Shown here one piece after another: positions 8,059 to 43,655 of a DNA stretch of 47,662 bases (within the stretch, counting starts at the first letter, position 1; every line of letters begins with the position of its first letter). The notes below the pieces were generated by a model. That model was not told the DNA's origin, made no database searches, and was given only the letters and a program-made list of their open reading frames with translations. The position numbers were made by a program, and so were the translations under genes. This stretch comes from a virus. The stretch is taken from positions 1 through 47,662 of IMG/VR virus record IMGVR_UViG_3300040751_005239. One strand, written 5' to 3'.

Positions 8059-8064
8059 CCTCCT
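8059..8064 (-). promoter_or_regulatory. Strong Shine-Dalgarno site AGGAGG
   Basis: The minus strand reads AGGAGGAAAAATG, a full six-base match to the anti-Shine-Dalgarno sequence with 4 bases to the start at 8054. A TATAAT-like hexamer lies just upstream (8073-8078), but the best -35 candidate (TTGTTA) is only 14 bases away, so I do not call a promoter. Confidence 0.75.
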
Positions 8065-8080
8065 AAAGATAATTATACCT

Positions 8081-26648: not shown

Positions 26649-26649
26649 T

Positions 26650-29154: not shown

Positions 29155-29165
29155 TTTAATCCTTT

Positions 29166-29858: not shown

Positions 29859-29867
29859 TTTTAACCT

Positions 29868-31016
29868 CTATAACGTTTCATCTAGGTGCGACATTGAATT
29901 TACGCATTTGTTGCAAACATCGTCTTTGTAATATTCGTTTTTAGAATGTATCTCTCTATAAAATTTCATTTCGTTGCCATTCCAAATTTCTTGAATCGTA
30001 CCTGTTATTAATTTTGCTTTTTTTGATTTATCTACCAAGCCTATGTTTTCAACGCTAGAATATGTTACATCTTTGCTTGTTTTTAATATACCAACAGGTA
30101 TTTCAGCACCATAAAAAGAACAGCAAGGTAAAACAGTACCGTCATACCTTACAGACAGATGAACGAATGGTTGTGCGCACTTAAATCTTTTGTTTGTTTT
30201 TTTACTGATAGATGTTTCTTTTCCGTAATCTTCTGTTATACCTACTAAATCTTGAATTCCAATTCCATCGACTTTGTCTTTCCAGTAATTAATGAAATCT
30301 TCAAGTTCATGTTTATTTGTTTTTGTTTTGACGAAATTAACTCTCACTGTTGGTAATTCTTTTCCCATACTATTTCTTAGCTGGATAAAATTTTTAACAT
30401 TTTGTATTGTTTTGCTGAATTCGCCACCCAGTCTTATTTTATCATAAGTTTCTTTTGTGTTTGCATCTATGGATATTTGAAGCCTATCTAATCCTGAATT
30501 TATTATTTCTTTTGATATTTTTTCTGTCAAAAGTGAACCATTTGTGCTAAAATAAGTATCAATAATTCCTCTTTTCTTAGCATACTTTATAAATTTTACA
30601 ATGTCTTTCCTGATCAAAGGTTCATTAATGTAATTAAATCTTACGCACTTCAAACCTTTTTTAACACTAATGTCTATTACTTCTTTAAAAACTTCAAAAT
30701 CAAACCAAGTTGATTTTCCTTTACCTGCTGTGTTTTCAGCGCTCCATGTGCACATAGGGCACCTGAAATTGCATGAATAATTAAGTTCAAAATCAATTTG
30801 TATTGGATAATTTGTCTTTTTAAGGTTTTTAGAAATGTCAGCGTATTCTTTTCTATATTTCTTATATTTGTATCTATCGACGTAACTTAAATTTCTTAAA
30901 ATTATATTTTCAATATTTTTTTTATTAATCTGCGTTGTTATTTCATTTTCATTTTTTGTTGTCAATAAAAACATTGATAAATTTTTTTTAATACTTTGAA
31001 TTATTCTTTTAATCAT
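29868..31016 (-). CDS. Radical SAM protein with SPASM-type C-terminus
   Basis: A 382-residue radical SAM enzyme. C82-x3-C86-x2-C89 in YSCNFRCPMCTW binds the SAM-cleaving [4Fe-4S] cluster; the strand after it and the TNGSLL segment (158-163) are typical. C280, C298-C299, C368 and C371 form a SPASM-like set for auxiliary clusters. Such enzymes modify peptides or sugars by radical chemistry. The substrate is unknown here. The ferredoxin encoded at 21223-21459 could be an electron donor, though it is 8 kb away. Clustered with glycosyltransferases and methyltransferases. Confidence 0.75.
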   Translation of the reverse strand: MIKRIIQSIKKNLSMFLLTTKNENEITTQINKKNIENIILRNLSYVDRYKYKKYRKEYADISKNLKKTNYPIQIDFELNYSCNFRCPMCTWSAENTAGKGKSTWFDFEVFKEVIDISVKKGLKCVRFNYINEPLIRKDIVKFIKYAKKRGIIDTYFSTNGSLLTEKISKEIINSGLDRLQISIDANTKETYDKIRLGGEFSKTIQNVKNFIQLRNSMGKELPTVRVNFVKTKTNKHELEDFINYWKDKVDGIGIQDLVGITEDYGKETSISKKTNKRFKCAQPFVHLSVRYDGTVLPCCSFYGAEIPVGILKTSKDVTYSSVENIGLVDKSKKAKLITGTIQEIWNGNEMKFYREIHSKNEYYKDDVCNKCVNSMSHLDETL

Positions 31017-31039: not shown

Positions 31040-31792
31040 CTATTTAGTTACTTCTAAATATAAGCTAGCGTGTGGATTTGTATCAGTCCATTTAACTTGG
31101 TTGTAAATATTGTTCATACTTTTTGAATTAACTTCAACAATACTTGAAAATCCTACATTGTTAATTAACATTTCTTCAAATTTTTCAATATTCCAAAAAT
31201 TTATATGTTGCAATGTTGTTTTTTTAGGAAAGTTTTTTTTAATTTCATAACATTTTTCATGTAATATTTTGCAAACTTCTTTGGTATTTTTCGTATATAG
31301 CATGTCTTTAATTTCTGATTCGCTCATTTTTAACTGTCTAATAGGAGGACCCTCATACCAATCTTTACTAACCCTATCAGAAAAATGATAATTACTAAAC
31401 CAGTTCAATAAAGCATTCTGTGCCGTCGGTTTTATGTTGTATTTTTCCCAACAATTATATTTTTTTCTAATGCCCCTATATTGTCTCAAGGGAGGACTTT
31501 TCCACATCGGATGCTTTTCGATAAAACACTTGTGAAGTTTTTCAAAGTCTGGTACAATTATTGTAAATACACTTCCTTTTTTAAGTACGCGATAAGTTTC
31601 TTTAAAAATATTCATAGATACTTTATCATCTATATGTTCAAAAAAATGTGAAGAATATGCAATATCAAATTGATTGTCTTCATAAGCAAACGATGAATTC
31701 TCATTCAATACATGACCTCGGACAGCATCTATTCCTACCCATCCCTTTGGACAATTCCACTCTTTGCCGCAGCCTAAATTAATCCCTAACAT
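31040..31792 (-). CDS. Class I SAM-dependent methyltransferase
   Basis: A 250-residue protein. The start is MLGINLGCGKEWNCPKGWVG, a motif I (L-x-x-G-C-G) with the following acidic residue in VGIDAVRG. The classic strand FDIAYSSHFFEHIDD (63-77 or so) and the VLKKGSVFTIIVPD segment complete the Methyltransf_11 pattern. The reading frame is also open from TTG at 31798, overlapping the transketolase stop as TTGA. I prefer the ATG at 31792, as motif I begins right after it. Probable small-molecule or glycan substrate. Confidence 0.7.
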   Translation of the reverse strand: MLGINLGCGKEWNCPKGWVGIDAVRGHVLNENSSFAYEDNQFDIAYSSHFFEHIDDKVSMNIFKETYRVLKKGSVFTIIVPDFEKLHKCFIEKHPMWKSPPLRQYRGIRKKYNCWEKYNIKPTAQNALLNWFSNYHFSDRVSKDWYEGPPIRQLKMSESEIKDMLYTKNTKEVCKILHEKCYEIKKNFPKKTTLQHINFWNIEKFEEMLINNVGFSSIVEVNSKSMNNIYNQVKWTDTNPHASLYLEVTK

Positions 31793-31794
31793 TG

Positions 31795-32724
31795 TCAAAT
31801 AACTTCTGTAATTGTTTTGAATATACCTTTAGCATTCAAATTGTATTTCTCATATAAGTCTTTAGGCGTACCGGATTCTGGGAAGACGTCGTTCAAGCCA
31901 ATTCTTTTAACTCGCTTAGGAGAATGTTCACTAAGAGTTTCAGATACTATCGATCCTAATCCACCTACAATAGTATGATCCTCAACTGTTACAACCAGTT
32001 CAGAATTTTTTGTGTATTTAATTAAACCCTCTGTATCAAACGGCTTTAAAGTGTGGGCATTAATAATGTTAACTTTTTTGCTTTTTTGTTTTTCAATCAT
32101 TTCTGCTGCTTTAATTACGTCTGTTAAAACACAACCAGAAACAATTATTGTTATGTCTGGTTCATCACATTGTTTAACAATTTGCAACTTTCCTAACTCT
32201 ATGTTTGAATTTTGCGTAAAAATCTCATCAACAGGTTGCCTTCCTAGTCTAAGGTAAGAAGGACCAGGTTGTTTTATTATTAATTTAAGCATATCTCTTG
32301 TTTGATTATATGTGGCCGGTTGATACACTTTCATGTTAGGTAATGATCTCATTAGCGATATATCTTCTAATCCCATTTGAGTAACGCCATCTTTACCTAT
32401 CGCCATACCTGAGTGAGTACCTACTAAAAGCATTGATGCATCAGAATAGCATGCAGAAACTCTTATTACATCATATTTGCCTGTCAAAAAAGAAGCAAAA
32501 GAAGAAAAAACAGGATAGAAGCCATTCTCAGAAAGACCTGACGCTATTCCGATCGCATTACATTCTGCGATTCCACATTCAAAAAATCTTTCAGGAAATT
32601 TTTCTAGAAATTTAGTAGTCCTAGTAGCTTTTGATAAGTCAGCACTCAAAACAATTAAATTTTTTTCATCTTTCCCCAAACAAACTAATTCATCTCCGAA
32701 ACCGTCTCTTGTTGCTAAACTCAT
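31795..32724 (-). CDS. Transketolase, C-terminal subunit
   Basis: A 309-residue protein with the pyrimidine-binding and C-terminal domains of transketolase. E54 in ECGIAECNAIGIASGL is the glutamate that activates thiamine diphosphate. The segment YLRLGRQPVDEIF and the C-terminal domain (TIIVSGCVLTDVIKAAEMIE) are as in split transketolases. It begins inside the stop of the N-terminal subunit gene (ATGA overlap), so the two halves are made coupled. Two-subunit transketolases are known in archaea and some bacteria, usually with carbohydrate clusters. Together they should move C2 units to make sedoheptulose 7-phosphate or a related ketose. Confidence 0.85.
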   Translation of the reverse strand: MSLATRDGFGDELVCLGKDEKNLIVLSADLSKATRTTKFLEKFPERFFECGIAECNAIGIASGLSENGFYPVFSSFASFLTGKYDVIRVSACYSDASMLLVGTHSGMAIGKDGVTQMGLEDISLMRSLPNMKVYQPATYNQTRDMLKLIIKQPGPSYLRLGRQPVDEIFTQNSNIELGKLQIVKQCDEPDITIIVSGCVLTDVIKAAEMIEKQKSKKVNIINAHTLKPFDTEGLIKYTKNSELVVTVEDHTIVGGLGSIVSETLSEHSPKRVKRIGLNDVFPESGTPKDLYEKYNLNAKGIFKTITEVI

Positions 32725-33491
32725 TTTAACTCCTTCAGTGCCAAATCGTATTCTTTTTTGTTAGGCGCTTTTGCATGCCAAGAAGGTGTCTCCATAAAAG
32801 ACACACCTTTTCCTTTGACTGTTTTTGCAATAATACATGTCGGCTTTTTACTTTTAAAACATGTTAATGTTTTTTCAACTTCTTTGTAGTCGTTTCCATC
32901 AATTTCAATCACTTCCCAACCAAAAGATAATATTTTTTCAGTTAAACTTTTACCAATATCCAAGCTTAATACATCTTTTGTATATCCATCGTTTTGAGCT
33001 CCATTTTTATCAATGATCAAACACAGATTATTTAGCTTGAATTTAGGTGCTAACATTATCGATTCCCAAATTTGACCTTCTTGCATTTCTCCATCCCCAA
33101 CAATACAAAAAACTTTATTTTTTTCTTGCTTAATTGAATGTGCTAAGGCATGGCCAATTGCGATGCTTAAACCTTGCCCTAGTGAACCGGTTGTAGCAAC
33201 AACATTTTTAAGCCTAACCTTGTCAGGATGACCCTGGAGTTTAGAATTAATTTTTCTAAAAGACAATAATTCTTTTTCACTAATTACACCTGACAAGTGT
33301 AGAGCTGCATATAAGGCAGGTGCAGCATGCCCCTTTGATAAAATTAGCTTGTCTAATTCTCCAGATTTTAAATCAAAGTTGTTGTATAGACATGCTACAA
33401 TTTCAGCTATCGAAAAAGATCCACCTACATGTCCGGACTGTGCTTCTAGCAACATTTTAAGTATTGTTTTTCTAATTTCATTTGGCGTCAT
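32721..33491 (-). CDS. Transketolase, N-terminal (TPP-binding) subunit
   Basis: A 256-residue protein equal to the first domain of transketolase. G20-H-V-G-G24 and SKGHAAPALYAAL lie in the active site; G132-D-G-E-M-Q-E-G139 to N163 is the thiamine-diphosphate/Mg motif. The next gene supplies the other half, with an ATGA overlap. Nearly all full-length features are present, so this is an active enzyme half, not a remnant. Its neighbours are the GmhA-like isomerase and the AroE-like protein, which fits a role in a heptose-type or ketose-derived sugar pathway. Confidence 0.87.
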   Translation of the reverse strand: MTPNEIRKTILKMLLEAQSGHVGGSFSIAEIVACLYNNFDLKSGELDKLILSKGHAAPALYAALHLSGVISEKELLSFRKINSKLQGHPDKVRLKNVVATTGSLGQGLSIAIGHALAHSIKQEKNKVFCIVGDGEMQEGQIWESIMLAPKFKLNNLCLIIDKNGAQNDGYTKDVLSLDIGKSLTEKILSFGWEVIEIDGNDYKEVEKTLTCFKSKKPTCIIAKTVKGKGVSFMETPSWHAKAPNKKEYDLALKELK

Positions 33492-33506
33492 TAGCGCAAT
33501 CTCCTT

Positions 33507-34136
33507 TTATAAATCCTGGACTTTCTTTTTAAAAATACCAGTTACAATATGAGTAATTTTTGATAAGCAGTCTTCAAAATGAAAATTATTGTTATTTTTA
33601 CCTGTCTGGCCTGGAAAGTTAGAATTACCAGTAATTTCAATAATCAGATCTGAATGTTGTGCGCATTTTCCTTTTTTGTTTTTTGTCAATAAAACAGTTT
33701 TCATATTTCTTGCTTTTGAAACTTTAAAGGATTCTAAAATATTTTTAGAATTTCCTGATCCTGAAAAACCTATTACTACATCATTTTCTCTTCCGTGCAC
33801 CTCTAATTGACCACTAAAAATATGATCTGGGCCTAAATCGTTCATTAATCCTGTTATTGAAGTATTTGATACGCATAGATCGATCACCCTAAGTCTTTTA
33901 TTTGATTTAAATTTTTTTGACTTATCTTCGCATACAAACGGATGAAGCGAAAGATCTGATACTAAATTACCTACAAAACCCGCATTGCCTCCATTGCCGC
34001 AAGCAAAAATACAATTGTCGTGCTGGTAAGCATCCCAGATAAAACTAATTAATTTGTCTACACTAATTTCATCAATGTTGTCAAATACGTTTTTTGATTC
34101 TTCTTTATATAATTTTATTAAGTCAATGTTTTTCAT
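33507..34136 (-). CDS. SIS-domain phosphosugar isomerase, GmhA-type
   Basis: A 209-residue protein of the sedoheptulose-7-phosphate isomerase family. G47-N-G-G50 and the S125-G-S-G-N-S130 loop bind phosphate; TSITGLMNDLGPDHIFSGQL and GRENDVVIGFSGSGNS are close to GmhA. Catalytic candidates are E188 and H196 in HFEDCLSKITHIV. One family glutamate (E65 in E. coli) aligns with D61 here, so substrate details may differ. The reaction expected is sedoheptulose 7-phosphate to D-glycero-D-manno-heptose 7-phosphate, the first step of ADP- or GDP-heptose synthesis. The adjacent transketolase supplies the substrate. Confidence 0.75.
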   Translation of the reverse strand: MKNIDLIKLYKEESKNVFDNIDEISVDKLISFIWDAYQHDNCIFACGNGGNAGFVGNLVSDLSLHPFVCEDKSKKFKSNKRLRVIDLCVSNTSITGLMNDLGPDHIFSGQLEVHGRENDVVIGFSGSGNSKNILESFKVSKARNMKTVLLTKNKKGKCAQHSDLIIEITGNSNFPGQTGKNNNNFHFEDCLSKITHIVTGIFKKKVQDL

Positions 34137-34146
34137 TTTTTTCCTT

Positions 34147-34824
34147 TTATTTTTTAATAATATTATCTAAGTTTTTTAAAATGTACATTGTAGGAAAGTC
34201 TTTTTTAGTATAAAGATTAAATTGTTTTGCAGCTTGAAGAATTGCTAATTCTTTTCCAGTGTCAGTATTTGTGTCGCAGTCAACGTATACAATTTCCTTG
34301 TTAAATTTTAAACCTTTTACTGGAGTACAATTAAAGATTAAACCGGATTTGATTTTTTTAATTTCTTCCCAGTTTTCTCTAGTATAAATTTTTATTTCTT
34401 TGAAGATTTTGTTTGCTGAGTATTGAACCGCTTTTGAAAAACCTCCATTGCCTAAAATATGAATTGTTTTAAAATTTCTGTACCTATTAATTACTTCAAA
34501 TGTTGAGTCACAGTCAGTATTGTATGCTATTAATTTCCCATTATCGTTAAGAATAGTGTTTGCTGCTCCAATGTCTTTAACTTCTTCGGATAATTCATCG
34601 ACATAATTTAAAACTTCTTCTTTGTAAGGCATTGTTATACTAACACCTCTTATATTTAAAGCTCGAGCGCCCTGAATTGCAGTTTTTAAATCTTTTGTGC
34701 TGAATGCTTTATAAAGAAAATTCATTTTTTCTTTTTCAAAAATATGATTATATATAGTTGTTCCAAAATTACCAGCTTTTTTTGCTAAAGAAATACAGAC
34801 TATTGTATCTTTATTTATTTTCAC
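34147..34824 (-). CDS. Shikimate dehydrogenase (AroE)-like oxidoreductase, divergent
   Basis: A 225-residue protein, shorter than the usual 270, starting at GTG 34824 behind AGAGG. Family features: SITMPYKEEV with catalytic K68, the GAANT turn (N89), NTDCD with D104, and the dinucleotide loop G125-N-G-G128. The S-x-S motif near the N-terminus that holds the shikimate carboxylate is lost (ISLAKKAGNFGTTIYNHIF), so the substrate is probably not shikimate. Placed between the isomerase and the nucleotidyltransferase-kinase, it may oxidise or reduce a sugar-derived intermediate. That is inference. Confidence 0.65.
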   Translation of the reverse strand: MKINKDTIVCISLAKKAGNFGTTIYNHIFEKEKMNFLYKAFSTKDLKTAIQGARALNIRGVSITMPYKEEVLNYVDELSEEVKDIGAANTILNDNGKLIAYNTDCDSTFEVINRYRNFKTIHILGNGGFSKAVQYSANKIFKEIKIYTRENWEEIKKIKSGLIFNCTPVKGLKFNKEIVYVDCDTNTDTGKELAILQAAKQFNLYTKKDFPTMYILKNLDNIIKK

Positions 34825-36364
34825 TTAAAACCTCTGCGAGTAGTAACTTGCCTAACAAAAATAAAAATCTTCCATACTCTCCCTTATGAAAATTTTCATA
34901 AAGGCATGCGATGTTAAGGTAATTCAATATGCCTACTAGTTTTACTTGTTGCCATGATAATTTATTTTCTTTACAAAACTCTTCGAGTATTTGAAGATTT
35001 TGCAATAAATTACTTCTTATGGCATATTCAATTGATGCTTCGTTTTCTGATATTTGTACAGAATACAAGCCTTTCATGATGTAACTTCCGTTAATCAAAA
35101 GAGCGTGATATATCTTTCCTAAATCGTAATATGCATCACCGATTTCTATTGAATCTCCAAAAGATTCTCGCCAATCAATCGTATAAAACTTGTTTTCATT
35201 ATTACTAAATATAATGTTTTCAGGTTGCATATCTCCGTGGAAGTGAGATTGTTTTGCATCTTCGAATAAACGATCCCAAGATATAGTTTCAATCATTGAA
35301 TTAATCGAATTAACTTTTACACCATTGATTAATGATATCTTGTCTAAATTTTCATGTTTAAACTTTTTAATTCTTTGAATCGTTTTGCTTTCGTACATCT
35401 TGTAACAATTATTAATAAATTTTTTGTCATTTTCAATATGTTTTTGTAAAAAATTAGATTTGTAAAATTCTAAGAAATTTTTAAAAACTCTGTAATCTTT
35501 AAAATTTGATAATAATTCGCCTTCGATATAATCGTAGCAATACATGTTTTCATTAATTAAATCAACCTTAGGGGTTAATTCACCTAAAATAACTGATCGT
35601 TGATACCTCATTTTTGTTTTTGCTGCATTATCAAAATATTTAATGACTTTACCATTTTCAATAAATAGAGCTTCATTCGTTTTATTTGCAACAACTTCAT
35701 TTGGGAATTTTTTCCTTGTTAGTTCATAAGATTTATTATTTCCCGTGTCGTACCAGTTAAAATATTTTAATTCTATTTCTTTTAGCTTATCAAAACCAGA
35801 AATTACCTGGATTTCATTTTTGATTAATTGTGCTGACTCTAAAGATTTCCAAAATTTTTTATAATCATATATTCCAGCAATGCCTATGAATGCTGTACTT
35901 CCTTTTCCGTAATAAAATTTTTTAAACTTGTTGTTGTCAGAATCAACAAGACAATAATTTTCATAGTTTTCATCAATTTTAGATACACCTACCCAATTAT
36001 TATTAAAATTTTCAATTACATCGTCATTACCTAGGATTGTATCTACTGATGTAAAGACAAACGGGCAGTTTAAAAACCCTTTACAGCAAAGCAAACTGTA
36101 GCCTGGGCCAGATCCTACTTGATCATAATTGTCGACTTCTACAAAATTAAATTTTCTTTTTGGGTGTATTGCTTTCAAATATGACTTTATTTGATCTGCC
36201 TTGTACCCTAATGCAATTATAATTTCTGTATCTTCGCTTACCTTTTCAATTATTTTAGAAATAACAGGTTTGTTTTCTATAGGTAGAAGCGCCTTGTGCA
36301 GACCTACTATAGAATCATTTCTTGAACCTTTTCCGGCTGCGAGGATACATAATTTATGATTCAT
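34811..36364 (-). CDS. Bifunctional nucleotidyltransferase-kinase fusion
   Basis: A 517-residue two-domain protein from ATG 36364; a GTG 12 bases upstream is less likely. Domain 1 (about 1-225) is a GT-A nucleotidyltransferase with LAAGKGSRN (8-16), K24 and a metal-site segment SVDT (106-109). Domain 2 (about 240-517) is an aminoglycoside/choline-kinase-fold kinase: HGDMQPEN (376-383) is the catalytic loop and IDWRESFGD carries the metal Asp. Kinase plus nucleotidyltransferase activity would turn a hydroxyl sugar or alcohol into an NDP-linked donor. It overlaps the cupin stop (11 bases) and the AroE-like start (14 bases). Confidence 0.75.
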   Translation of the reverse strand: MNHKLCILAAGKGSRNDSIVGLHKALLPIENKPVISKIIEKVSEDTEIIIALGYKADQIKSYLKAIHPKRKFNFVEVDNYDQVGSGPGYSLLCCKGFLNCPFVFTSVDTILGNDDVIENFNNNWVGVSKIDENYENYCLVDSDNNKFKKFYYGKGSTAFIGIAGIYDYKKFWKSLESAQLIKNEIQVISGFDKLKEIELKYFNWYDTGNNKSYELTRKKFPNEVVANKTNEALFIENGKVIKYFDNAAKTKMRYQRSVILGELTPKVDLINENMYCYDYIEGELLSNFKDYRVFKNFLEFYKSNFLQKHIENDKKFINNCYKMYESKTIQRIKKFKHENLDKISLINGVKVNSINSMIETISWDRLFEDAKQSHFHGDMQPENIIFSNNENKFYTIDWRESFGDSIEIGDAYYDLGKIYHALLINGSYIMKGLYSVQISENEASIEYAIRSNLLQNLQILEEFCKENKLSWQQVKLVGILNYLNIACLYENFHKGEYGRFLFLLGKLLLAEVLSENK

Positions 36365-36833
36365 TTTTATGTTCACTCTCTATTTTACCAGATTTACGAT
36401 TAGCGTCATCTTGAAATCTCTCTACATCGTCTAAATGAGGTGTTGAAACTTCCACTGCTGAATAATCTGTCAATGCTATTACTCGATGCTTTCTTCCAAC
36501 AGGTACTACCCAACCTGTCCCAGGACCAAAAGTAAAAGATTCTAGCTCTCCTTTGTCATTTTCTAATAAAACTTCAGCTGTTCCTTCAAAAACATAGTTT
36601 GCTTCTACTTTTTTTTCATGACGCTGGAGTGAACTTCTATTACCTGCTTTCATGTGTATTAGTTTAAATGCATAAAATTCGTTCAATTCCATCCATTTTT
36701 CAAAACCCCATGGTTTATCAACTTTGTAATTGCTAAGTGATAGTACGTTTTCTTTTTTTCTTTCAATTGGTTCTTTATAATCTTGTAATGCTTTTTTAAT
36801 CCACGGATCTTTAATTTCATTATATTTCGACAT
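36354..36833 (-). CDS. Cupin, mannose-6-phosphate isomerase type II-like
   Basis: A 159-residue single-domain cupin. PWGFEKWM (41-48) followed by SSLQRHEKKVEANYVFEG gives metal ligand candidates Q70, H72 and E77; H116 and E128 complete the site. The pattern matches the isomerase domain of ManC, but without the nucleotidyltransferase part. It could isomerise or epimerise a phosphosugar, or act as a sugar dioxygenase-like cupin. It starts 14 bases inside the HAD gene end, and its stop overlaps the fusion gene start. Confidence 0.65.
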   Translation of the reverse strand: MSKYNEIKDPWIKKALQDYKEPIERKKENVLSLSNYKVDKPWGFEKWMELNEFYAFKLIHMKAGNRSSLQRHEKKVEANYVFEGTAEVLLENDKGELESFTFGPGTGWVVPVGRKHRVIALTDYSAVEVSTPHLDDVERFQDDANRKSGKIESEHKNES

Positions 36834-37185
36834 CTTTAATTCCTTTGTTTCTTTTTAAGTTGATTGCAATTGCTGTGGGTGTATCGTTATCTGGTTTTAG
36901 ATCATTAATTATATATCTTGTTCCACCGCCAATACCCATTATTAATTTATCGTAAAATATTCCTAAGTCTGATAATTGAATTTCTGTTACTTTTCTTAAA
37001 GACTCTCTCCTCCCAGTTGTTAAGATTATGTTGAACCCTTTTCTATCCCATTCAATTAATTTTTCTATTGTACCAGATAATACTTTCGGTTCTTTTTTTA
37101 CTTGATCATGAAGATTTCCAAAGCTGTATATCAATGTCCCGTCTATGTCACAAAATATTGTCTTAGGTCTTTTGTTTAATTCCAT
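36820..37185 (-). CDS. HAD-superfamily phosphatase, capsule-type
   Basis: A 121-residue small HAD phosphatase. IFCDIDGTL provides D13 and D15; LTTGRR (55-60) is motif II; the end has YIINDLKPD with the motif IV-like Asp. Its size and uncapped form resemble HAD phosphatases in capsule clusters and heptose phosphatase GmhB (which is longer). Dephosphorylation of a heptose or sugar bisphosphate between kinase and nucleotidyl transfer steps would fit. Overlaps the GT8-like stop by 10 bases. Confidence 0.65.
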   Translation of the reverse strand: MELNKRPKTIFCDIDGTLIYSFGNLHDQVKKEPKVLSGTIEKLIEWDRKGFNIILTTGRRESLRKVTEIQLSDLGIFYDKLIMGIGGGTRYIINDLKPDNDTPTAIAINLKRNKGIKDVEI

Positions 37186-37982
37186 CTTAACTTTTTCCCG
37201 AACACTAGTTCATTTAAGTAATCACTTCTTTGCTCAAAATTACCTCCTCCCGGGCCAAACTTTTTAGAACTTCCTTTGTAATGAAGAATGGAAGTTTTTT
37301 CATTTACCCAGTCCCTTTCATAACAATTGTAATATGCGCAATGAATTTTTTGAACGTTTAACTCTTTAAACTCATCTTCAAGACATGCATGCAAAAAATA
37401 ATTTTGTTCATATTGACCACCTTTTGGGGGATTGTTGTTTTTGTATCTTTCCCATGCATCAATAAACTTTAAACAATTTTTTGGATTGTTCCAAAATATA
37501 ACACCACAATTTGGATAATCAACTTGAAATTGACCTAAAATATGATCCCATGGTGTAACCGGTCTGACTGTTAAAGAAACATCAGCATCTTTATCTAGCA
37601 TTGAAAAATCGTTTCTAATAATTGCTGTATCTGCGTCTAACTGTATTACTTTTTCAACTTCGTCATGTAAAAAAAGTGATTTAAGAAAATTAATTCTATT
37701 GTCGATAATATCTCTATACTCGTTACTTTGTGTTTTAAAACCCACATTAAAATTTTTATGTTCAAATTCTAAAAATTTAATTTTATTACCTAATATCGAT
37801 TTTAGCTGTTCTTTTTGTTCTTTTAACAAACCAATGTCAGCTACAAACATGTTTTTATATTTTATATTAAGGCTTTTAATGAGATAGACTTGCTGGAGAA
37901 GATAACTGTATACATTATTACTGGCAATAACTGCTAACGTATATTCGGATATATTTTGGTTTTCTTTAGGATAAAATATCAT
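37176..37982 (-). CDS. Glycosyltransferase, GT8-like (GT-A fold)
   Basis: A 268-residue GT-A enzyme. QLDADTAI (114-121) contains the D-x-D metal motif, followed by a NCGVIFW strand (158-164) and, near the end, HYKGSSKK (234-241), the H-x-x-G-x-x-K motif of GT8. Donor and acceptor are unknown. Its start overlaps the stop of the methyltransferase (ATGA), and the next gene overlaps its own stop. Confidence 0.7.
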   Translation of the reverse strand: MIFYPKENQNISEYTLAVIASNNVYSYLLQQVYLIKSLNIKYKNMFVADIGLLKEQKEQLKSILGNKIKFLEFEHKNFNVGFKTQSNEYRDIIDNRINFLKSLFLHDEVEKVIQLDADTAIIRNDFSMLDKDADVSLTVRPVTPWDHILGQFQVDYPNCGVIFWNNPKNCLKFIDAWERYKNNNPPKGGQYEQNYFLHACLEDEFKELNVQKIHCAYYNCYERDWVNEKTSILHYKGSSKKFGPGGGNFEQRSDYLNELVFGKKLRWN

Positions 37983-38734
37983 TTTATTCTCCTAATTTTA
38001 TGAAGACGCACGCCATCAGTTGCTTCCAATACTAAGCCGTCAATACTGGCAACGACCTTTACTAATAAATTATGATATTCATCAACATTTTTTGCTCCGT
38101 TACCGTGGATTAAAATTACTCCATTGGTTACTAATATTTTATAAAATTCTTTAAACATTAATGTTAACTTTTGATCTAAATTATCATCAATAATCCAAGA
38201 TAATTGTTGCGCGTCTTTATGTTGTTTATGAGGTACCCCTTCCAGGTGAGATCTAAATACTTGCTCTATAGATCCTCTACTATTAATTAAAGCTGTTGAA
38301 TTTTCTGGTATATTTAAATTGCCTATACTGTTATAGAAATCGCAATACTTTATATTCAAGTTTTGTCTTTTCGACATTAAATAAGAATACCTGATATATT
38401 CGTTACCCATTTCGCAATCATCAATTAAAGCATCATACCCTAGGTGGTTATATCCGTGATCTCTAGCAACTTCTAAAAGCTCCCCCGGGCCAGGACCTAT
38501 ATCTATAATAAATAAATTACTTAAGTTTCTGTTTGATTCTGAGAGAATCTCTGGTGCTAAAGAATTTATATAGTTTTTAATATCTTTAATTCTTTTTTCT
38601 CTATTAGCGCATTTACGTTGAATATAATCATTTTTTAACAATTCATTGTATTCTGCTTCATCTTCTTTTGATTTAAAATCCAAAAGATCTAAACCGTCAA
38701 GATTTTTAAAATCTATTACATTAATTTTACTCAA
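37979..38734 (-). CDS. Class I SAM-dependent methyltransferase-like protein
   Basis: A 251-residue protein with motif I at 75-88 (FIIDIGPGPGELLE) followed by HLGYDAL. The C-terminal strand VILIHGNG and the RGSIEQVF segment are compatible with the Rossmann-like methyltransferase core. The N-terminus is helical and charged. Sits in a chain of glycosyltransferases with 4- to 8-base overlaps on both sides, so a glycan O- or N-methylation role is a fair inference. Confidence 0.6.
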   Translation of the reverse strand: MSKINVIDFKNLDGLDLLDFKSKEDEAEYNELLKNDYIQRKCANREKRIKDIKNYINSLAPEILSESNRNLSNLFIIDIGPGPGELLEVARDHGYNHLGYDALIDDCEMGNEYIRYSYLMSKRQNLNIKYCDFYNSIGNLNIPENSTALINSRGSIEQVFRSHLEGVPHKQHKDAQQLSWIIDDNLDQKLTLMFKEFYKILVTNGVILIHGNGAKNVDEYHNLLVKVVASIDGLVLEATDGVRLHKIRRIK

Positions 38735-39677
38735 TTTTTAATACCTCATCAAAAAAACATTCCCATTGATCAATCGCTTTTAAAGCCCATTCCTTAGAAA
38801 TATTACCTATGTTTATTGAAATTCTATCGTACAAATCTTCATTATACATTAATTTTTCTATTTTTTCTTTTATACTTAAAGCATTTCTTTCACAAAACAA
38901 ACCGCTAGTATTATCTTCTATCATTTCTTGGATTTGACCTACTCGTGTTGTTATTATAGGAACTCCACAAAGACCTGCTTCGAGCATTGAATTTGGTGCT
39001 CCTTCATGATTTGAGGCACATACAACGACGTCCAGGCTTTTATAAAAATCAGGCATATCATTATAAGTCAGCCTGTTGTCAAATCCTGCTACTACATATT
39101 CAACTTTATCCCCTAATAGCTTGCATGCATCTCTAATAAAAAAATGACCTTTGTTTTCATTTGCAATTGCGCAGTCTCTTCCTACATAACCTACTCTAAA
39201 TTTACTTTTATCTTTTTTAAACAATCTATGACTTTTACCTAATTCAAAAGGAGAAAATAAATTATAGTCATTTACATGATATGCTAATCTAATTTTATTA
39301 GTATCATAAACTGATTCTAATTTTTTAAAATATTGTTGACTTTTAGTTACCAAAAGAGGTGCAGATTGATATTCGCGCCATCCTTTGTTGTACATTCGAA
39401 AGAATACTTCTGATGTAACTTGAGAAACAACTTTACAATTATAACCTTCAGGAAATTTTATGTATTTTGTAAATATCTCTAGGTCAGGTACCCATTGCAG
39501 AAACAACATATCATATTTTTTTACACTTAAAAATTTAATAATGTCATTTTTATTTTGATCACTTACAATATCAATATCATATTTTTCAGGGTTTAAAAAC
39601 TTTTTTAAAACTTTAGCATTTTTGTGATATGCCCAATCAGGTACATCATATGTTATTAAAATATTTTTTTTATCCAT
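38727..39677 (-). CDS. Glycosyltransferase, GT4-type (GT-B fold)
   Basis: A 316-residue GT-B enzyme, with RVGYVGRDCAIANENKGHFF in the middle. The donor-site motif EGAPNSMLEAGLCGVPIITT is in the last third, followed by RVGQIQEMIED. The N-terminal domain is short, as in several phage GT4 enzymes. It overlaps its neighbours by 8 bases on each side. Substrates unknown. Confidence 0.78.
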   Translation of the reverse strand: MDKKNILITYDVPDWAYHKNAKVLKKFLNPEKYDIDIVSDQNKNDIIKFLSVKKYDMLFLQWVPDLEIFTKYIKFPEGYNCKVVSQVTSEVFFRMYNKGWREYQSAPLLVTKSQQYFKKLESVYDTNKIRLAYHVNDYNLFSPFELGKSHRLFKKDKSKFRVGYVGRDCAIANENKGHFFIRDACKLLGDKVEYVVAGFDNRLTYNDMPDFYKSLDVVVCASNHEGAPNSMLEAGLCGVPIITTRVGQIQEMIEDNTSGLFCERNALSIKEKIEKLMYNEDLYDRISINIGNISKEWALKAIDQWECFFDEVLKIE

Positions 39678-40605
39678 TTTTTAACACCTCATAAAGATAT
39701 TCAACATAATATTCGTAAGAATGAAACTTATTAATATAGTTTGAAACTTTTTTAAAATTTTCTTTGTTTTGAAAAAAATGCTTTTTTTCTTTAAATTTTT
39801 CAATATAAAGTTCTGATATGTTGTCTTTCCAGGTTATCCAATTGTTAAAATTAGATCCGTCAACTAAAAAACTTTTATCAAAAACATGTGTTGTGTTATA
39901 AGGTGTCCCTATAATCGGCGTACCACACGATTGTATTTCAAGTTGTGCATTCGAACAATAGTCTTCAATACTAAACCAGAAACAAGCAAGATAATTACCA
40001 GCAATTTTTAACAAGTCTTCTTTTTTATATTTTCCATATTCAATTACATCATATTTTATTTTTTCTTTTTCTAAGCAATTAATAAAATTAGGAAAAAGTT
40101 TGTCAAATTGATTATCTATTCTTCTTTTTTTTGCATATACTAATACTTTTTCTCTTTTAGCGTCATTATTCTTTTGTGCGTTGTCAATGGTAATACAATT
40201 TGGTAAAACTTTATAGTTTTTTGAATTTTTAAAATATTTTTTTGCATAATTTACATAAAAGTCTGCTTTGTTGAAATAAAAATCAGAATTTACGTTATTG
40301 CAAAACCATTTTTCCCATTCATCTGACAATCCTAATTCGGGTTTTTCAAATAAAACATTTGGACCCATTATAATTTTTTTATTAGGAAAGTTTTGTTTAA
40401 TTAAAAGATAAAGTTGCGGATGAAATCTTACAGAAAACCAGAAAACATCGTAAGAATTAAGTAGATTATAGTTACTTAAATGATCGTTGGTTATTGTATC
40501 TATTTCAAAATATTTTGAATTTTTAATTGCACTCAAATGATTATAATAAGCATTTCCCGGTCCCCTATTACCACCCGGGTGTGAACACATAAGTATTTTA
40601 ATCAT
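39670..40605 (-). CDS. Putative glycosyltransferase (GT-B-like)
   Basis: A 311-residue protein. It opens with a Rossmann start (KILMCSHPGGNRGPGNAYYN), and the C-terminal third has YCSNAQLEIQSCGTPIIGTP, a donor-site motif of the E-x-x-x-x-G-x-P type found in GT4-like enzymes. The central part contains a KNYKVLPNCITID segment typical before the second domain. Eight-base overlaps with both neighbouring GT genes support one translational chain. Family and substrate not fixed. Confidence 0.7.
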   Translation of the reverse strand: MIKILMCSHPGGNRGPGNAYYNHLSAIKNSKYFEIDTITNDHLSNYNLLNSYDVFWFSVRFHPQLYLLIKQNFPNKKIIMGPNVLFEKPELGLSDEWEKWFCNNVNSDFYFNKADFYVNYAKKYFKNSKNYKVLPNCITIDNAQKNNDAKREKVLVYAKKRRIDNQFDKLFPNFINCLEKEKIKYDVIEYGKYKKEDLLKIAGNYLACFWFSIEDYCSNAQLEIQSCGTPIIGTPYNTTHVFDKSFLVDGSNFNNWITWKDNISELYIEKFKEKKHFFQNKENFKKVSNYINKFHSYEYYVEYLYEVLKNG

Positions 40606-41368
40606 TTAGGAATCCTCTTTTTCTTAAAAAAACGCTAGTTTTGTGAGCCAAATCTTTATAAAATTCTCCAAAAGAATCACTTCGCGGCCGGCCTGTATTT
40701 TCTAAAAATTGATATACGTAAAGAGGATAATTAATAAAACCGACTGCACTATAATTTTTATCTCTATCTTTGAGCATATGCAGAATTGGTAAAATATATG
40801 CTTGATCTGTCCCCATTTTAATCCATTCATTGTTCCAATCTAAAAAATTACTAATTGGAATATTTTTAAATGTTTTAACTTTAAAAGTTGCCATGGCAGA
40901 TGTTATCCACGGGTCTTTATAACCATTAAATTCATTATTTGGAATTTGCTTAGATATGCCTAATTGATTGTTGTGAGAATACATCCAGTTAGTATAAACA
41001 TATTCTAGCTTTTGGTTTTGTTCGTATGAGTTTTTAATAATTTCTATAGTTCGATCGACTGAAAACCAGTCATCTCCGTCAAGAAGCATGACTATAGCTT
41101 CTGGGTTCTCAATTGTTTGGATAGCGTCATAAATATTTTTTAATCTATGCTTTCTTTTTTTATTTGAAATTAATTCTACGTGATTATAATTTTTTGCTTC
41201 TATTATTTTTTTAGCAGCATTTGTTGTGGCACCACCATCTTCTGACATGTCATCAATATAAAAATGTTTATTAGGTAAAATAGTTTGTTGAGCTACTGAT
41301 TCTATACAGTTGACTGCGAACTTATTTGCTTTGTAAGCACAAGAAATAACGTAAATTTCATTATTCAT
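40598..41368 (-). CDS. Glycosyltransferase family 2 (GT-A fold)
   Basis: A 256-residue inverting-type enzyme. YVISCAYKANKFAVNCIESV then QQTILPNKHFYIDDMSEDGG match the GT2 nucleotide-binding strands; MLLDGDDW (94-101) carries the metal D-x-D and catalytic region. The following part has the usual acceptor-side segment with WITSAMATFK. It starts in a 4-base overlap with the cupin stop and ends inside the next GT gene. A sugar-chain building role is likely. Confidence 0.8.
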   Translation of the reverse strand: MNNEIYVISCAYKANKFAVNCIESVAQQTILPNKHFYIDDMSEDGGATTNAAKKIIEAKNYNHVELISNKKRKHRLKNIYDAIQTIENPEAIVMLLDGDDWFSVDRTIEIIKNSYEQNQKLEYVYTNWMYSHNNQLGISKQIPNNEFNGYKDPWITSAMATFKVKTFKNIPISNFLDWNNEWIKMGTDQAYILPILHMLKDRDKNYSAVGFINYPLYVYQFLENTGRPRSDSFGEFYKDLAHKTSVFLRKRGFLND

Positions 41369-41718
41369 CTATTGTAATCATCCTCTAATCTAACTACGTC
41401 ATCGGGATAATAAGTACTTACCTCAGATAATGCAACATCTCCTTTTTCTGCAGAAAATCTGTGAATTGTTTTAGGCGGGATATGGTAACATTGTCCCGGC
41501 CCTAAATCAACTTTTTTAGTATTACCTGTGTATTGATTTTTAATATATAAAACCAATACCCCTCTCATGACATATATTGTTTCTTCTTTTTTTTCATGAT
41601 ACTGGAGAGACAATCTTTCTTTCATATTAATATTAATTGTTTTCCCCAAATATTTACCAGGGACATCTGCCCAGATTTCTTCCCAGCCCCATGGTTTTTG
41701 TATTATTTTTGGATTCAT
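41365..41718 (-). CDS. Cupin, mannose-6-phosphate isomerase type II-like
   Basis: A 117-residue cupin very like the isolated C-terminal domain of ManC. KPWGWEEIW at the start, LSLQYHEKKEETIYVMRG with Q39, H41 and E46 as metal ligands, H86 in KTIHRF, and the closing RLEDDYNR (110-117), close to the ManC R-F-E-D-D-Y-G-R. It probably interconverts fructose 6-phosphate and mannose 6-phosphate or a related pair. It is a second cupin of this type in the island, at the beginning of the long GT chain. ATGA-type overlaps on both sides. Confidence 0.75.
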   Translation of the reverse strand: MNPKIIQKPWGWEEIWADVPGKYLGKTININMKERLSLQYHEKKEETIYVMRGVLVLYIKNQYTGNTKKVDLGPGQCYHIPPKTIHRFSAEKGDVALSEVSTYYPDDVVRLEDDYNR

Positions 41719-43655
41719 TCTACCTCCTCCATCATAATTCTAGGCTGCTTTTTAGAAATTTTCAAATATGGTGTAGGTTTATTAAAATCTACTTTTTGAT
41801 GAAATATCCAACCTCCCATTTTTTCTTTGAGTTTGACTGACATTTCTTTAATTTCTTTTTCAGTAACTTTAGACCAAGATTTATTAAAAAACATATTGTT
41901 TTCTGGTGTATCTTTTTGTTCAATATTGTAAAGAGATAGCCAGTGTTTTGTCCAATAATCTCGATATGTTTTAATTTTTCTTTCTAAGTTAAACCAACTG
42001 TAATGATAGACACCAGGAAGTTCATTGATAACATTTTCAAACCATTTTTCGTAATTCTTAATTAAATTTTTGTCTTTGTTTTGCAACATTTGCATTCTAA
42101 CATTATGCACTTCAGGTGTATAAAAAGTTGCGCAAGGTACTGGCTTTAGAGATGTTTTATCAATGTAATCACAACCATCAGTACCTTGAAGCGCATACAA
42201 GTTACCTTCGTCATCAAATTTTCGCAAACTTCCTGGAATTCCGTGTGTTATATAACTATGATTCTTGCTTAGTCTCCATTTCCATGGATTAACATCACAT
42301 CTAACTTTTTCGGGCCCACCCCAATATTCAACAATAGGCAAAGCTAAAAGATGTACTGACTTTGGTAATTTTTTGGCCAAAATCTTAATTTTTTTTGCAT
42401 CATCTTCATGAACAATTTCATCTGAATCTTGTTGCCAACACCAATCCATACTACAACGGCTTCTTGCGTCAGCTTTTAGTTCTCCGTCAAAAACAGCAAA
42501 TCTTTTATGATTATAATCTTTGATACGCTGATATACCTTTAGTTTTTCTTCTTTATCTGCCCACTCTGTTAATTTTTCCCATGTACCATCATCAGAGCCT
42601 CCATCAGCGACTACAACTTCATCACAAAATTGCAACATTGATTGTATACTCTGTTTCCACGGATAATCACTGTTAATTACATTTTTTGTTGTCATATAAC
42701 CACTTATTTTTATTTCTCTGTTAACATGTCGTTCAATCTCGTCCCAAAAACGTTTATGTCCATCAAGAAGGTAAGCCTCAATTTCATCAGGTTCACCTCC
42801 CCACCATTCTTCACTCATATGCTGCACATTATCGTTGATATAAAGTTGAAGTCCCAATAAACTTGCCTCAATAACGATTCTTGGACATGTATCACCACCA
42901 AGAGGCATAAAAGCAAAACCTTCATATGCTGATAAAGTTCTTAATAAATCTGAATATGCTAGACCTGAGAGGATATCGTATTCAGCTTTGCCATCTAAAA
43001 ATTCAGTTAATTTTTGTTTTGTCTCTTCGATGCCTTTAATCCAGGAATTTGAACCAATAATTGCCCATTTGCCATTTGTTCCATTTTCTTTTCTTGCCTT
43101 GCACAAAGATTCAATTTGTTCTAAATCTTTAACATCGAATACCGATGATAGCCTTATTGACTTTTCGTCTGTTAAAAATGGAAAACGTTTTTGATATCTT
43201 TGTTTTTGTTTATCAGACATCCAAAATATTTTTTCGGCACCAGCAAAGAATGATGAAATAAACTTACCATAATCTTCATTATGACAATTACAATCTTCAC
43301 CTGTTTCTTTTTTGTGTAATTCTATTGAGCGATATCGACAAAACTTATAATCGTATTCAGTAATAAAATAATAAAGATTAGCAACAATCACTGGGATTAA
43401 ATTTAAATTCATTTGCGAAAAATTAAAAAAAATCCAAGTTTTATTAACGCCTTGTTGAATCAGTTGATCTGTTAGATCACTTGATTTAAGCTTATAGGTT
43501 TTATAGGGGCTAGTTCCAAACAATGCCTCTGTCGTAAGCTCAGCACCTCCAGAGTATTCATCAGTGAATAGGTCAGCCACAAAGATAACATCTGCTTCTT
43601 GAAATTCATATGCATTTCTATTTTTCTTGGTCTCAAACACGCTTTGCGAGAACAT
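41715..43655 (-). CDS. Two-domain glycosyltransferase (GT4-like + GT2-like)
   Basis: A 646-residue protein with two enzyme parts. Residues about 20-305 resemble a GT-B/GT4 domain, with AIIGSNSWIKGIEETKQKL and a donor-site run GGDTCPRIVIEASLLGLQLY. Residues about 315-500 are a GT2 domain: VVVADGGSDDGTWEKL (347-362) is the nucleotide motif and WQQDSDEIV (407-415) the metal motif. The last 140 residues are helical. GGAGG lies 8 bases before the ATG. First gene of the sugar island in transcription order. Fusion suggests two successive sugar transfers, an inference. Confidence 0.72.
   Translation of the reverse strand: MFSQSVFETKKNRNAYEFQEADVIFVADLFTDEYSGGAELTTEALFGTSPYKTYKLKSSDLTDQLIQQGVNKTWIFFNFSQMNLNLIPVIVANLYYFITEYDYKFCRYRSIELHKKETGEDCNCHNEDYGKFISSFFAGAEKIFWMSDKQKQRYQKRFPFLTDEKSIRLSSVFDVKDLEQIESLCKARKENGTNGKWAIIGSNSWIKGIEETKQKLTEFLDGKAEYDILSGLAYSDLLRTLSAYEGFAFMPLGGDTCPRIVIEASLLGLQLYINDNVQHMSEEWWGGEPDEIEAYLLDGHKRFWDEIERHVNREIKISGYMTTKNVINSDYPWKQSIQSMLQFCDEVVVADGGSDDGTWEKLTEWADKEEKLKVYQRIKDYNHKRFAVFDGELKADARSRCSMDWCWQQDSDEIVHEDDAKKIKILAKKLPKSVHLLALPIVEYWGGPEKVRCDVNPWKWRLSKNHSYITHGIPGSLRKFDDEGNLYALQGTDGCDYIDKTSLKPVPCATFYTPEVHNVRMQMLQNKDKNLIKNYEKWFENVINELPGVYHYSWFNLERKIKTYRDYWTKHWLSLYNIEQKDTPENNMFFNKSWSKVTEKEIKEMSVKLKEKMGGWIFHQKVDFNKPTPYLKISKKQPRIMMEEVE

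Follow-up and report, generated by a model that had tools for sequence, protein, structure and literature searches.

A seven-gene viral cassette with a split transketolase and a fused nucleotidyltransferase-kinase as a probable assembly line for a nucleotide-activated rare sugar

We suggest that seven adjoining genes on the virus contig IMGVR_UViG_3300040751_005239 probably allow a phage to assemble a rare sugar in nucleotide-activated form. The whole contig, a fragment of 47,662 bases, was analysed and is referred to as the window; a scan of its genes showed that it also codes for baseplate-wedge, exonuclease and PhoH proteins. The best reading of the cassette, well supported by comparison, is a nucleotide-sugar line that would be fed by a transketolase plus a SIS isomerase. 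A heptose is tentatively the favoured product, at somewhat under an even chance, with other higher or rare sugars making up the remainder.

Gene content of the cassette

The seven genes form one tight operon on the minus strand at 31795-37185, in which adjoining open reading frames overlap by 4-23 nt or are separated by gaps of 10-15 nt. The cassette and its neighbours are as follows.

Cassette genes:
36820..37185, minus strand: small HAD phosphatase, 121 aa (PF03767, 1.6e-6; TIGR00099, 28.6 bits, below cut-off)
36354..36833, minus strand: cupin of the mannose-6-phosphate-isomerase-C-terminal type (PF01050, 2.6e-8)
34811..36376, minus strand: nucleotidyltransferase (N) fused to an APH-type kinase (C), the hub enzyme NTA (PF12804, 6e-8)
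34147..34824, minus strand: AroE/HI0607 (SdhL)-like NAD(P) dehydrogenase with a short C-terminus (PF08501, 5.9e-20; NF009202, 167 bits)
33507..34136, minus strand: GmhA-like SIS sugar-phosphate isomerase (PF01380, 5e-10)
32721..33491, minus strand: transketolase N-terminal (ThDP-binding) subunit, TK-N (PF00456, 2.6e-39)
31795..32724, minus strand: transketolase C-terminal (Pyr plus C domain) subunit, TK-C (PF02779, 7e-35; PF02780, 1e-24)

Accessory genes:
31040..31798, minus strand: SAM methyltransferase, directly downstream (PF08241, 7.6e-7)
37176..37982, minus strand: glycosyltransferase-like gene, directly upstream (PF03407, 4.3e-7)
38727..43655, minus strand: glycosyltransferase block, of which 38727-39677, 40598-41368 and 41715-43655 were tested (PF00534, PF00535, PF13704)

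A sequence-only reading of this DNA had listed the split transketolase, the GmhA-like SIS isomerase, the fusion of a nucleotidyltransferase with an APH kinase and the small HAD phosphatase. All are present where it had placed them, in one operon; its list missed the AroE-like dehydrogenase and the cupin inside the same interval. The upstream glycosyltransferase-like gene shares 10 nt with the HAD gene, and both it and the glycosyltransferase block are possible users of the cassette product. The methyltransferase, possibly acting at a later step of the pathway, has a relative (157 bits) that adjoins the cassette in locus L014 and is not constant elsewhere.

Recurrence in viruses and cells

Searching IMG/VR by the SIS isomerase fetched 19 other viral contigs, which correspond to 16 distinct ones at 95% SIS identity. 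Since the full set of seven is found in 15 of the 19, the co-occurrence of these genes is beyond chance; two of the remaining contigs are cut by the contig end and two are without the HAD gene alone. Gene order is permuted among these contigs, and in one of them the transketolase lies on the other strand.

A cellular origin of the cassette was looked for by a pattern scan across 84,980 genomes and by profile searches in samples of three groups. The pattern scan gave four loci, of which one is phage-like; as it requires exact short peptide matches, presence in cells may be higher. The profile searches matched 1/300 genomes, the seed, in the order of G002, 4/379 in the phylum of G004 (the seed at 250 bits, three others at 111-113 bits) and 9/279 in the phylum of G003 (the seed at 348 bits, eight others at 107-123 bits). 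No account of such a phage cassette was found in the open-licence literature, in part judged by titles.

Transketolase and SIS isomerase

TK-N and TK-C are predicted to be the two subunits of a split transketolase that retains the ThDP and catalytic residues. In TK-N, residues H26, H66, H100, D155 and N185 are kept in 21/21 sequences and H261 in 20/21, with one gap; in TK-C, H461, D469 and R520 are kept in 23/23, and R358 and E411 in 22/23, again with one gap. The solved structure closest to TK-C is the split transketolase of Carboxydothermus (6yaj, 7.9e-77). Position H473 of TK-C is Gln in all 23 sequences; this replacement was considered as a sign of an unusual transketolase and dropped, as human transketolase also has Gln there. 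Transketolase genes in phage records are not new as such, because a tblastn search with TK-C matched 61 phage records, mostly unannotated faecal or bulk contigs, with up to about 41% identity among the matches listed. It counts against the cassette reading that a phage should carry a transketolase when hosts own one already.

The window SIS protein scores 78.5 bits against the gmhA model TIGR00441, whose cut-off is 209 bits, and 16.8 bits against the kpsF model. The phosphate loop of GmhA is retained in the cassette proteins. At E. coli GmhA positions H61, E65, Q172 and H180, which we take to be metal ligands, they have N, D, E and H in 16/16 sequences, three of the four being altered. GmhA-like intermediates from small archaea and CPR bacteria have H, D, E and H in 9/9, so the changes from E to D and from Q to E are common to both sets; the change from H to N at position 61 is found in 16/16 cassette proteins and 0/9 intermediates. 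These altered positions would count against GmhA identity, with a heptose no more than plausible.

The nucleotidyltransferase-kinase fusion

The AF2 model of the fusion has a pLDDT of 91.1 and a pTM of 0.88. A fold search with this model showed that the N domain resembles sugar-1-phosphate nucleotidyltransferases (Z up to 26.0) and is as close to the phosphocholine enzyme LicC (Z 24.6); the matches were filled by the nucleotidyltransferase domain, and the kinase half was hardly probed. The best PDB profile match of NTA is CTP:inositol-1-phosphate cytidylyltransferase (2xme, 5e-7). HddC (5xhw) is also among the matches, by sequence at 7e-5 and by fold at 2.5e-10, and is no closer than other nucleotidyltransferases.

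The motifs HGD...EN and DW of the kinase half are invariant in 16/16 aligned relatives. The APH Pfam match to this half is below cut-off (E=0.004), and a search of PDB sequences gave no match better than E=0.27 and did not find AmgK, which has an APH fold; by sequence, the kinase half can be assigned to APH only weakly. With NCBIfam and Pfam, the window set gave this weak APH match instead of a match to a GHMP-type kinase, the type of HddA, or to a ribokinase-type kinase (HldE). A viral scan with a single fusion-enzyme sequence found no relatives, but scans with a two-sequence and with larger NTA alignments did yield them.

Dehydrogenase, cupin and phosphatase

The best PDB profile match of the AroE-like enzyme is HI0607 (1npy, 3.6e-49), and 5-ketofructose reductase (7cok) matches at 7.7e-19. 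K65, N86 and D102 of E. coli AroE are kept in 80/80 distinct AroE-like sequences, and by its catalytic Lys65 and Asp102 the enzyme is predicted to be a member of the shikimate dehydrogenase family. Ser14 and Ser16, which presumably bind the carboxylate in AroE, are found in 0/80 and 1/80 sequences, in a part where the alignment is loose, and the enzyme does not class as a true AroE. In a viral scan anchored on the AroE-like gene, NTA lies at most 6 kb away in 75/80 loci, and in 62/62 of those with full flanks.

The cupin is present in 19/19 SIS-scan loci and is fused to the nucleotidyltransferase-kinase in 27/27 rows of group B, described below; it is possibly a ketose/aldose isomerase or an epimerase. 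The HAD motifs DxDGT and TGR are found in 19/19 sequences, namely those of the HAD-bearing loci of the SIS-scan set, the window and L080. The window HAD protein, compared with NCBIfam at E up to 0.01, matched no GmhB model, and generic HAD models only below their cut-offs.

Exchangeable front ends around NTA

Other viruses pair NTA with a GatZ-like enzyme of aldolase/epimerase fold in place of transketolase and SIS. We placed 108 loci, including the window, in four hand-drawn groups, A-D, after removing cut-off or near-copy loci by eye; in these descriptive counts, a GatZ-like partner is found in 78/85 loci of groups B-D versus 1/23 in group A. In four loci, NTA stands with a ribulose-phosphate-3-epimerase-like (Rpe-like) and HxlB-like pair. 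A quick tree of NTA places 19 of the 20 rows with transketolase and SIS, and the sole row scored as having both front ends, in one clade (SH-aLRT 100); L020 is scored as having neither, since its transketolase lies just past the 8-kb limit. The AroE-like gene is absent beside the hub in 33/102 rows. Both front ends occur in two contigs: one is listed as L074 and again as L053, and the other, L130, has a hub gene split in two.

The gene pairings support the view of NTA as a hub, whose front end tracks the NTA tree, and place the kinase-nucleotidyltransferase with enzymes that reshape ketose phosphates. We speculate, at even chances, on a general phage sugar workshop: a kinase-nucleotidyltransferase hub and a phosphatase, often with a cupin and an AroE-type sugar dehydrogenase, would be served by at least three ketose-phosphate front ends, with a different nucleotide-activated rare sugar made from each. 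In the window version, this sugar would be a heptose or octose, and cells would have no such route to it; the UDP-arabinose enzymes of phage RB69 would be part of the hub.

Comparison with known systems

RB69 DNA carries arabinose, and ORF053c and ORF052c were proposed by the authors for the supply of UDP-arabinose (excerpt of PMC6024577). Both RB69 ORF051c-ORF055c and the window group have a nucleotidyltransferase, a kinase-like protein and a SIS protein, the first two being remote homologues: with the broad NTA profile and Z set to 100,000, the NTA halves match the nucleotidyltransferase ORF053c (1.1e-6) and the kinase ORF052c (2.1e-13). A profile made from group A only matched ORF052c alone in RB69 (5.5e-10). 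The two enzymes are encoded by separate genes in RB69 whereas they are fused in the window, and ORF055c is annotated as an arabinose-5-phosphate isomerase whereas the window SIS is GmhA-like and not of the KdsD/GutQ type. The cassette SIS and HAD profiles gave no match to ORF055c and the small ORF051c, and the annotation of the 16-kb stretch of RB69 that was read shows neither a transketolase nor an AroE-like gene. The RB69 module sits between DNA polymerase and uvsX.

The GDP-heptose route leads from sedoheptulose 7-phosphate through an isomerase, a C1 kinase, a phosphatase and a nucleotidyltransferase (excerpt of PMC10680097), the same step logic as in the window. The window differs in having an APH-like kinase fused to the nucleotidyltransferase instead of a GHMP-type kinase, in adding its own transketolase, AroE-like enzyme and cupin, in a HAD protein without a GmhB model match, and in the altered metal site of the SIS protein.

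In peptidoglycan recycling, the phosphatase MupP, the anomeric sugar kinase AmgK and the nucleotidyltransferase MurU act in that order (excerpt of PMC5371407). AmgK, with its APH fold, is a precedent for an aminoglycoside-kinase-type enzyme in such a role, the novelty of which is overstated in the sequence-only reading. This line, with a HAD-type phosphatase, an anomeric kinase and a GlmU-like nucleotidyltransferase in series, resembles the window, where a HAD protein, an APH-type kinase (by motif and weak profile match) and a nucleotidyltransferase are encoded together. It differs in its separate genes, its MurNAc substrate and its lack of a transketolase, SIS or AroE-like partner.

The lincosamide octose cluster encodes the transaldolase LmbR, the isomerase LmbN, the kinase LmbP, the phosphatase LmbK and the nucleotidyltransferase LmbO (excerpt of PMC12945683). 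Likened by enzyme roles, this is the series of the window, but with a transaldolase for the transketolase and in a non-viral setting. As for the dehydrogenase, 5-ketofructose reductase is an AroE-family enzyme that acts on a keto-sugar, one C. pasteurianum homologue being inactive on 5-ketofructose (excerpt of PMC7954740), and sdhL adjoins an L-sorbose operon in E. coli ST648 (excerpt of PMC12817954). 5-ketofructose reductase, SdhL/HI0607 and the window enzyme all belong to the AroE family, with HI0607 as the closest solved structure.

Proposed pathway and alternatives

Gene content, conservation, motifs, folds and the exchange of front ends are results of computation; the chemical steps, substrate, nucleotide and target given here are those that we infer for the cassette. 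In brief, the two-subunit transketolase would lengthen a ketose phosphate, in the simplest case to sedoheptulose 7-phosphate, and the SIS enzyme would convert this product to the aldose form. The phosphate would be shifted to C1 by the HAD phosphatase together with the APH-type kinase, with either the phosphatase first (MupP-AmgK logic) or the kinase first (HddA-GmhB logic), and the fused nucleotidyltransferase would yield the NDP-sugar. The AroE-like enzyme may carry out a redox change on a sugar or polyol, and the cupin may act as an isomerase or epimerase, the place of both in the order not being fixed. The nearby glycosyltransferases probably consume the product. The heptose-nucleotide pathway of the sequence-only reading is kept as a nucleotide-sugar line whose genes act as a set, as seen in the 15 complete contigs, with heptose as a candidate sugar in view of the differences of the SIS protein from GmhA at positions 61, 65 and 172.

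An unlikely alternative, with a small but real share of the probability, is a C5-C6 rare sugar, for which transketolase and SIS would merely rearrange common sugar phosphates, as thought for RB69 arabinose; viruses of the GatZ and Rpe/HxlB types may do so for hexoses or pentoses. To judge by their families, the other hub front ends use ketose phosphates of C5-C6, and NTA is remotely homologous to the RB69 proteins, but a transketolase alters chain length by two carbons, and the separate hub clade of the transketolase variant suggests a distinct substrate.

Unlikely too, at slightly lower probability, is an octose or other higher sugar: the transketolase would extend a hexose phosphate by C2 to octulose 8-phosphate, which SIS would turn into octose 8-phosphate, followed by kinase, phosphatase and nucleotidyltransferase. 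Octulose 8-phosphate is a known transketolase product of fructose 6-phosphate and glucose 6-phosphate (excerpt of PMC5854111), the lincosamide enzyme series offers a model (PMC12945683, same excerpt), and the active-site changes of the SIS protein relative to GmhA would fit; heptose phosphates are, however, the commoner metabolites.

We consider it distinctly unlikely that the hub activates a non-sugar alcohol or alditol, as in CDP-choline-like or CDP-alditol products; the AroE-like enzyme would then supply an alditol phosphate by reduction of a ketose phosphate. The closeness of the N domain to LicC, the match to 2xme and the presence of a reductase in the cassette agree with this, but an alditol phosphate would have no need of both phosphatase and kinase, and about a third of the hub relatives have no AroE-like gene.

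It is very improbable that split transketolase and AroE-like enzyme lead to a carbocycle by a cyclitol or aminoshikimate-like route, as in ansamycin clusters. Split transketolases occur in rif clusters and the AroE catalytic residues are kept throughout, but the scanned window genes include no dehydroquinate-synthase-like cyclase, and the two AroE serines are missing, in the loosely aligned part, from nearly all sequences. Least probable of all is an auxiliary metabolic set that boosts pentose-phosphate flux for nucleotide synthesis, since, although transketolase is a pentose-phosphate enzyme and phages carry pentose-phosphate genes, the linkage to the kinase-nucleotidyltransferase, HAD and cupin is constant and the surroundings are rich in glycosyltransferases.

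Implications

If the nucleotide-sugar reading is true, viruses own modular rare-sugar factories in which the sugar is set by swapping front-end enzymes, and the sugars of phage glycans and of hypermodified phage DNA would be predictable from genes. Higher-carbon nucleotide sugars would become accessible by a new enzymatic route. A likely role in sugar metabolism would follow for the HI0607/SdhL branch of the shikimate dehydrogenase family, and the RB69 UDP-arabinose route, left open by its discoverers, would gain candidate homologues and a logic.

The cassette in the window

The window record is viral, 47,662 bases in length. Among its PHROG matches are a baseplate wedge subunit, an exonuclease and PhoH. 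It encodes a cassette of seven genes, listed here with its two direct neighbours:

31795-37185, minus strand: in order of transcription HAD (small phosphatase), cupin, NTA (nucleotidyltransferase fused to an APH-type kinase), ARO (AroE/HI0607-like dehydrogenase), SIS (GmhA-like isomerase), TKN and TKC (N- and C-terminal subunits of a split transketolase, TK)
Directly before HAD: glycosyltransferase-like gene
Directly after TKC: methyltransferase gene

Neighbouring cassette genes overlap by 4-23 nt or are spaced by 10-15 nt, and more glycosyltransferases are encoded upstream. The parts named for this interval in the sequence-only reading are all real, but it omitted the AroE-like gene and the cupin. 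Sulfatase-family, DUF7796 and radical SAM/SPASM proteins are encoded at 27757-31016, in the stretch that separates the cassette from the tail genes, and a DUF711 protein (25419-26744, PF05167 1.5e-37) lies within the glycan region of the phage. A short protein at 21460-21879 matches a PHROG annotated as GTP cyclohydrolase (2e-21); it looks QueF-like by eye, which perhaps points to 7-deazaguanine chemistry in this phage.

Recurrence in viruses and cells

IMG/VR loci were searched with profiles of the seven proteins. The SIS alignment retrieved 19 contigs, of which 15 have all seven genes no further than 8 kb from SIS. The exceptions are L054 and L064, which end before TKC and ARO, L049, which has no HAD, and L055, where a KdsC-type HAD is found instead. 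The SIS proteins of these contigs, the window and L080 (a locus without ARO) form 18 clusters at 95% identity. Identity to the window proteins is 45-51% for SIS, 40-55% for ARO and 42-53% for NTA, with a more distant NTA (33%) in L003. The gene order is permuted: ARO can come last, precede SIS (the arrangement in the window) or, in L049, precede NTA; L049 also has its TK genes on the opposite strand.

Among 84,980 species genomes, a pattern-based scan found four loci: L029, filed as 'bacterium TMED198'; L030, a Nitrosopelagicus single cell; L031, a Pacearchaeota bin; and L032, a Zambryskibacteria bin in which the kinase half alone was found, with an SDR nearby. L029 shares its gene neighbours with the viral contig of L002, so the binned contig is probably that of a phage. 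Samples of related genomes gave nothing beyond remote GmhA-like matches.

The hub enzyme and its front ends

Wider scans used the NTA and ARO alignments, and 80 of 85 loci were kept from the ARO scan. NTA is located within 6 kb of ARO in 75 of these 80, and in 62 of 62 where the flanks are full. The ARO loci without NTA (L157, L181, L184, L185 and L192) are each truncated on one side by the end of the contig; L181, L184 and L185 have no cassette gene on the uncut side of ARO either, and their matches may be plain AroE genes.

We sorted 108 loci, including the window, by eye into group A (TK and SIS present, n=23), group B (NTA-ARO-HAD, n=29), group C (cupin-NTA-ARO, n=28) and group D (NTA without ARO, n=28). 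Clustering of neighbouring proteins revealed a family of approximately 325 aa in 29/29 B, 25/28 C and 24/28 D loci, and in a single group A locus of 23 (L074). The family is GatZ-like (PDB profile match 2fiq, 4e-8). An AlphaFold2 model (pLDDT 93.2) has GatZ-type 2fiq as its top structural match (Z 31.1, 319 residues, 2.5 A), followed by tagatose 4-epimerase (Z 26.1), UxaE (Z 25.1) and class II aldolases (about Z 22), so that the protein is by predicted fold a ketose aldolase or epimerase. In the D loci without it (L092, L096, L110 and L138, the last placed here by clustering), NTA is found beside ribulose-phosphate-3-epimerase-like proteins (PF00834, 3e-33 and 1e-45) and HxlB-like SIS proteins (TIGR03127, 117-168 bits, one of three above cut-off). 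TK/SIS and GatZ-like genes occur together on two contigs, L074/L053 and L130.

In a quick tree built from 102 NTA rows, with SH-aLRT as the only branch support, one clade (SH-aLRT 100) contains 19 of the 20 TK/SIS rows and the sole row with both front ends. Two changes are required for the TK/SIS versus GatZ label and four for ARO presence. From these sequences we infer that the hub enzyme has followed its front end, as would be expected if the front end supplies its substrate. A cupin, separate or fused, is present in 27/27 B, 24/25 C, 21/22 A and 18/28 D rows, and in all 27 group B rows it is fused to the NTA N-terminus. A family of 13 SnoaL/NTF2-like small proteins, 10 from group C, is encoded between the hub and AroE-like genes (e.g. 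L189 9678-9995) in many group C loci. In nine GatZ-type contigs (L094, L103, L104, L116, L124, L125, L136, L171 and L172), a second pair of genes, located about 6-10 kb downstream of the hub, remotely resembles a split transketolase (77-92 and 35-53 bits).

Active sites and predicted function

The NTA model (pLDDT 91.1) has an N domain that resembles sugar-1-phosphate nucleotidyltransferases (Z up to 26.0) and the phosphocholine enzyme LicC (Z 24.6) to about the same degree, and HddC is among its Foldseek matches. In the kinase half the HGD...EN and DWR motifs are invariant. Its APH match is weak in the window (0.004), while a relative in L130 reaches 9.5e-6, above cut-off; a PDB sequence search with this half gave no useful match.

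The closest solved structure to ARO is HI0607 (1npy, 3.6e-49), and 5-ketofructose reductase 7cok is also matched (7.7e-19). Compared with E. coli AroE, all 80 distinct proteins retain K65, N86 and D102 and 75 retain Q244, while Ser14 is found in none and Ser16 in one, in a loosely aligned region. These serines hold the shikimate carboxylate in AroE, and we therefore read the ARO substrate as a polyol without carboxylate, i.e. a sugar. Shikimate dehydrogenases are described as related to 5-ketofructose reductase, one homologue of which was inactive (PMC7954740), and sdhL adjoins the L-sorbose operon in E. coli ST648 (PMC12817954); we count the relationship and the operon as support for a sugar role.

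The closest solved structure to the window transketolase is the Carboxydothermus split enzyme 6yaj (8e-77). In E. coli numbering, and with the window proteins (L001) included, TKN keeps H26, H66, H100, D155 and N185 in 21/21 distinct proteins and H261 in 20 (one gap). TKC keeps H461, D469 and R520 in 23/23 and R358 and E411 in 22 (one gap), with S385 replaced by Ala in 21 and H473 by Gln in all 23. The window SIS is closest to GmhA (5i01, 1e-24). Of the E. coli GmhA residues, the cassette proteins retain N52-G54, S121, S124 and H180, and 15/16 have G51. The metal ligands of GmhA are H61, E65, Q172 and H180. At the first of these, all 16 cassette proteins have Asn, and nine of nine GmhA-like sequences of small-archaeal or CPR-bacterial origin retain His; across the full set of 25, Asp takes the place of E65 and Glu that of Q172. 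A zinc in the active site of GmhA is described in PMC11056994.

Proposed pathway and sugar

The whole scheme is probably as follows. Transketolase would form a ketose phosphate, SIS would convert it to an aldose phosphate, HAD and the kinase would place phosphate at C1, and the nucleotidyltransferase domain would then attach the nucleotide. The literature gives precedents for the order phosphatase-kinase-nucleotidyltransferase in MupP, AmgK and MurU (PMC5371407), and for kinase-phosphatase-nucleotidyltransferase in GDP-heptose synthesis (PMC10680097) and, judging from the genes present, in that of lincosamide octose (PMC12945683). Neither the enzyme families of the cassette nor the pathway logic is new; in the open-licence papers searched we found no description of the gene combination, its own transketolase, the AroE-type partner or the exchangeable front ends.

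Heptose is our first guess for the product, at slightly less than even confidence, since transketolase leads from pentose phosphate to C7 and SIS is closest to GmhA. But the SIS metal site is altered, and octulose 8-phosphate is also a transketolase product (PMC5854111). The cassette would work like a heptose pathway, but we do not file it as one, since the kinase, phosphatase and isomerase hallmarks of such pathways that were tested for were not found in it.

Possible targets of the sugar

Remote homologues of the NTA halves are encoded by phage RB69 (L223) as ORF053c (1.1e-6) and ORF052c (2.1e-13), both scored with the broad profile at Z=100,000; the group A profile found ORF052c alone. Arabinose is present on RB69 DNA, and the authors who found it there suggest, without proof, that ORF055c and ORF53_52c supply UDP-arabinose (PMC6024577). 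ORF055c and ORF051c are at most analogous to the cassette SIS and HAD, since neither is matched by those profiles and ORF051c (7709-8095) has no Pfam match. The latter is annotated 'phosphoheptose isomerase' but is not a SIS protein, and has a D-x-D-D motif by eye. The same annotation in Enterococcus phage 9183 (L004 7666-8010) belongs to a protein that is not SIS either and matches the cassette HAD profile (4e-7).

In phage 9183 this HAD relative and an NTA relative (1.5e-46) are located amid nucleotide-metabolism genes. Cytosine-C5-methylase-family proteins are encoded beside NTA in L092 (10412-11662, PF00145 3e-14) and L110 (1234-2535 and 8728-9996, assigned by clustering). Based on these surroundings, the sugar may be put on DNA in some phages. 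In the window, where glycosyltransferases and tail genes are nearby, the gene surroundings suggest a virion or surface glycan as the likelier destination of the product.
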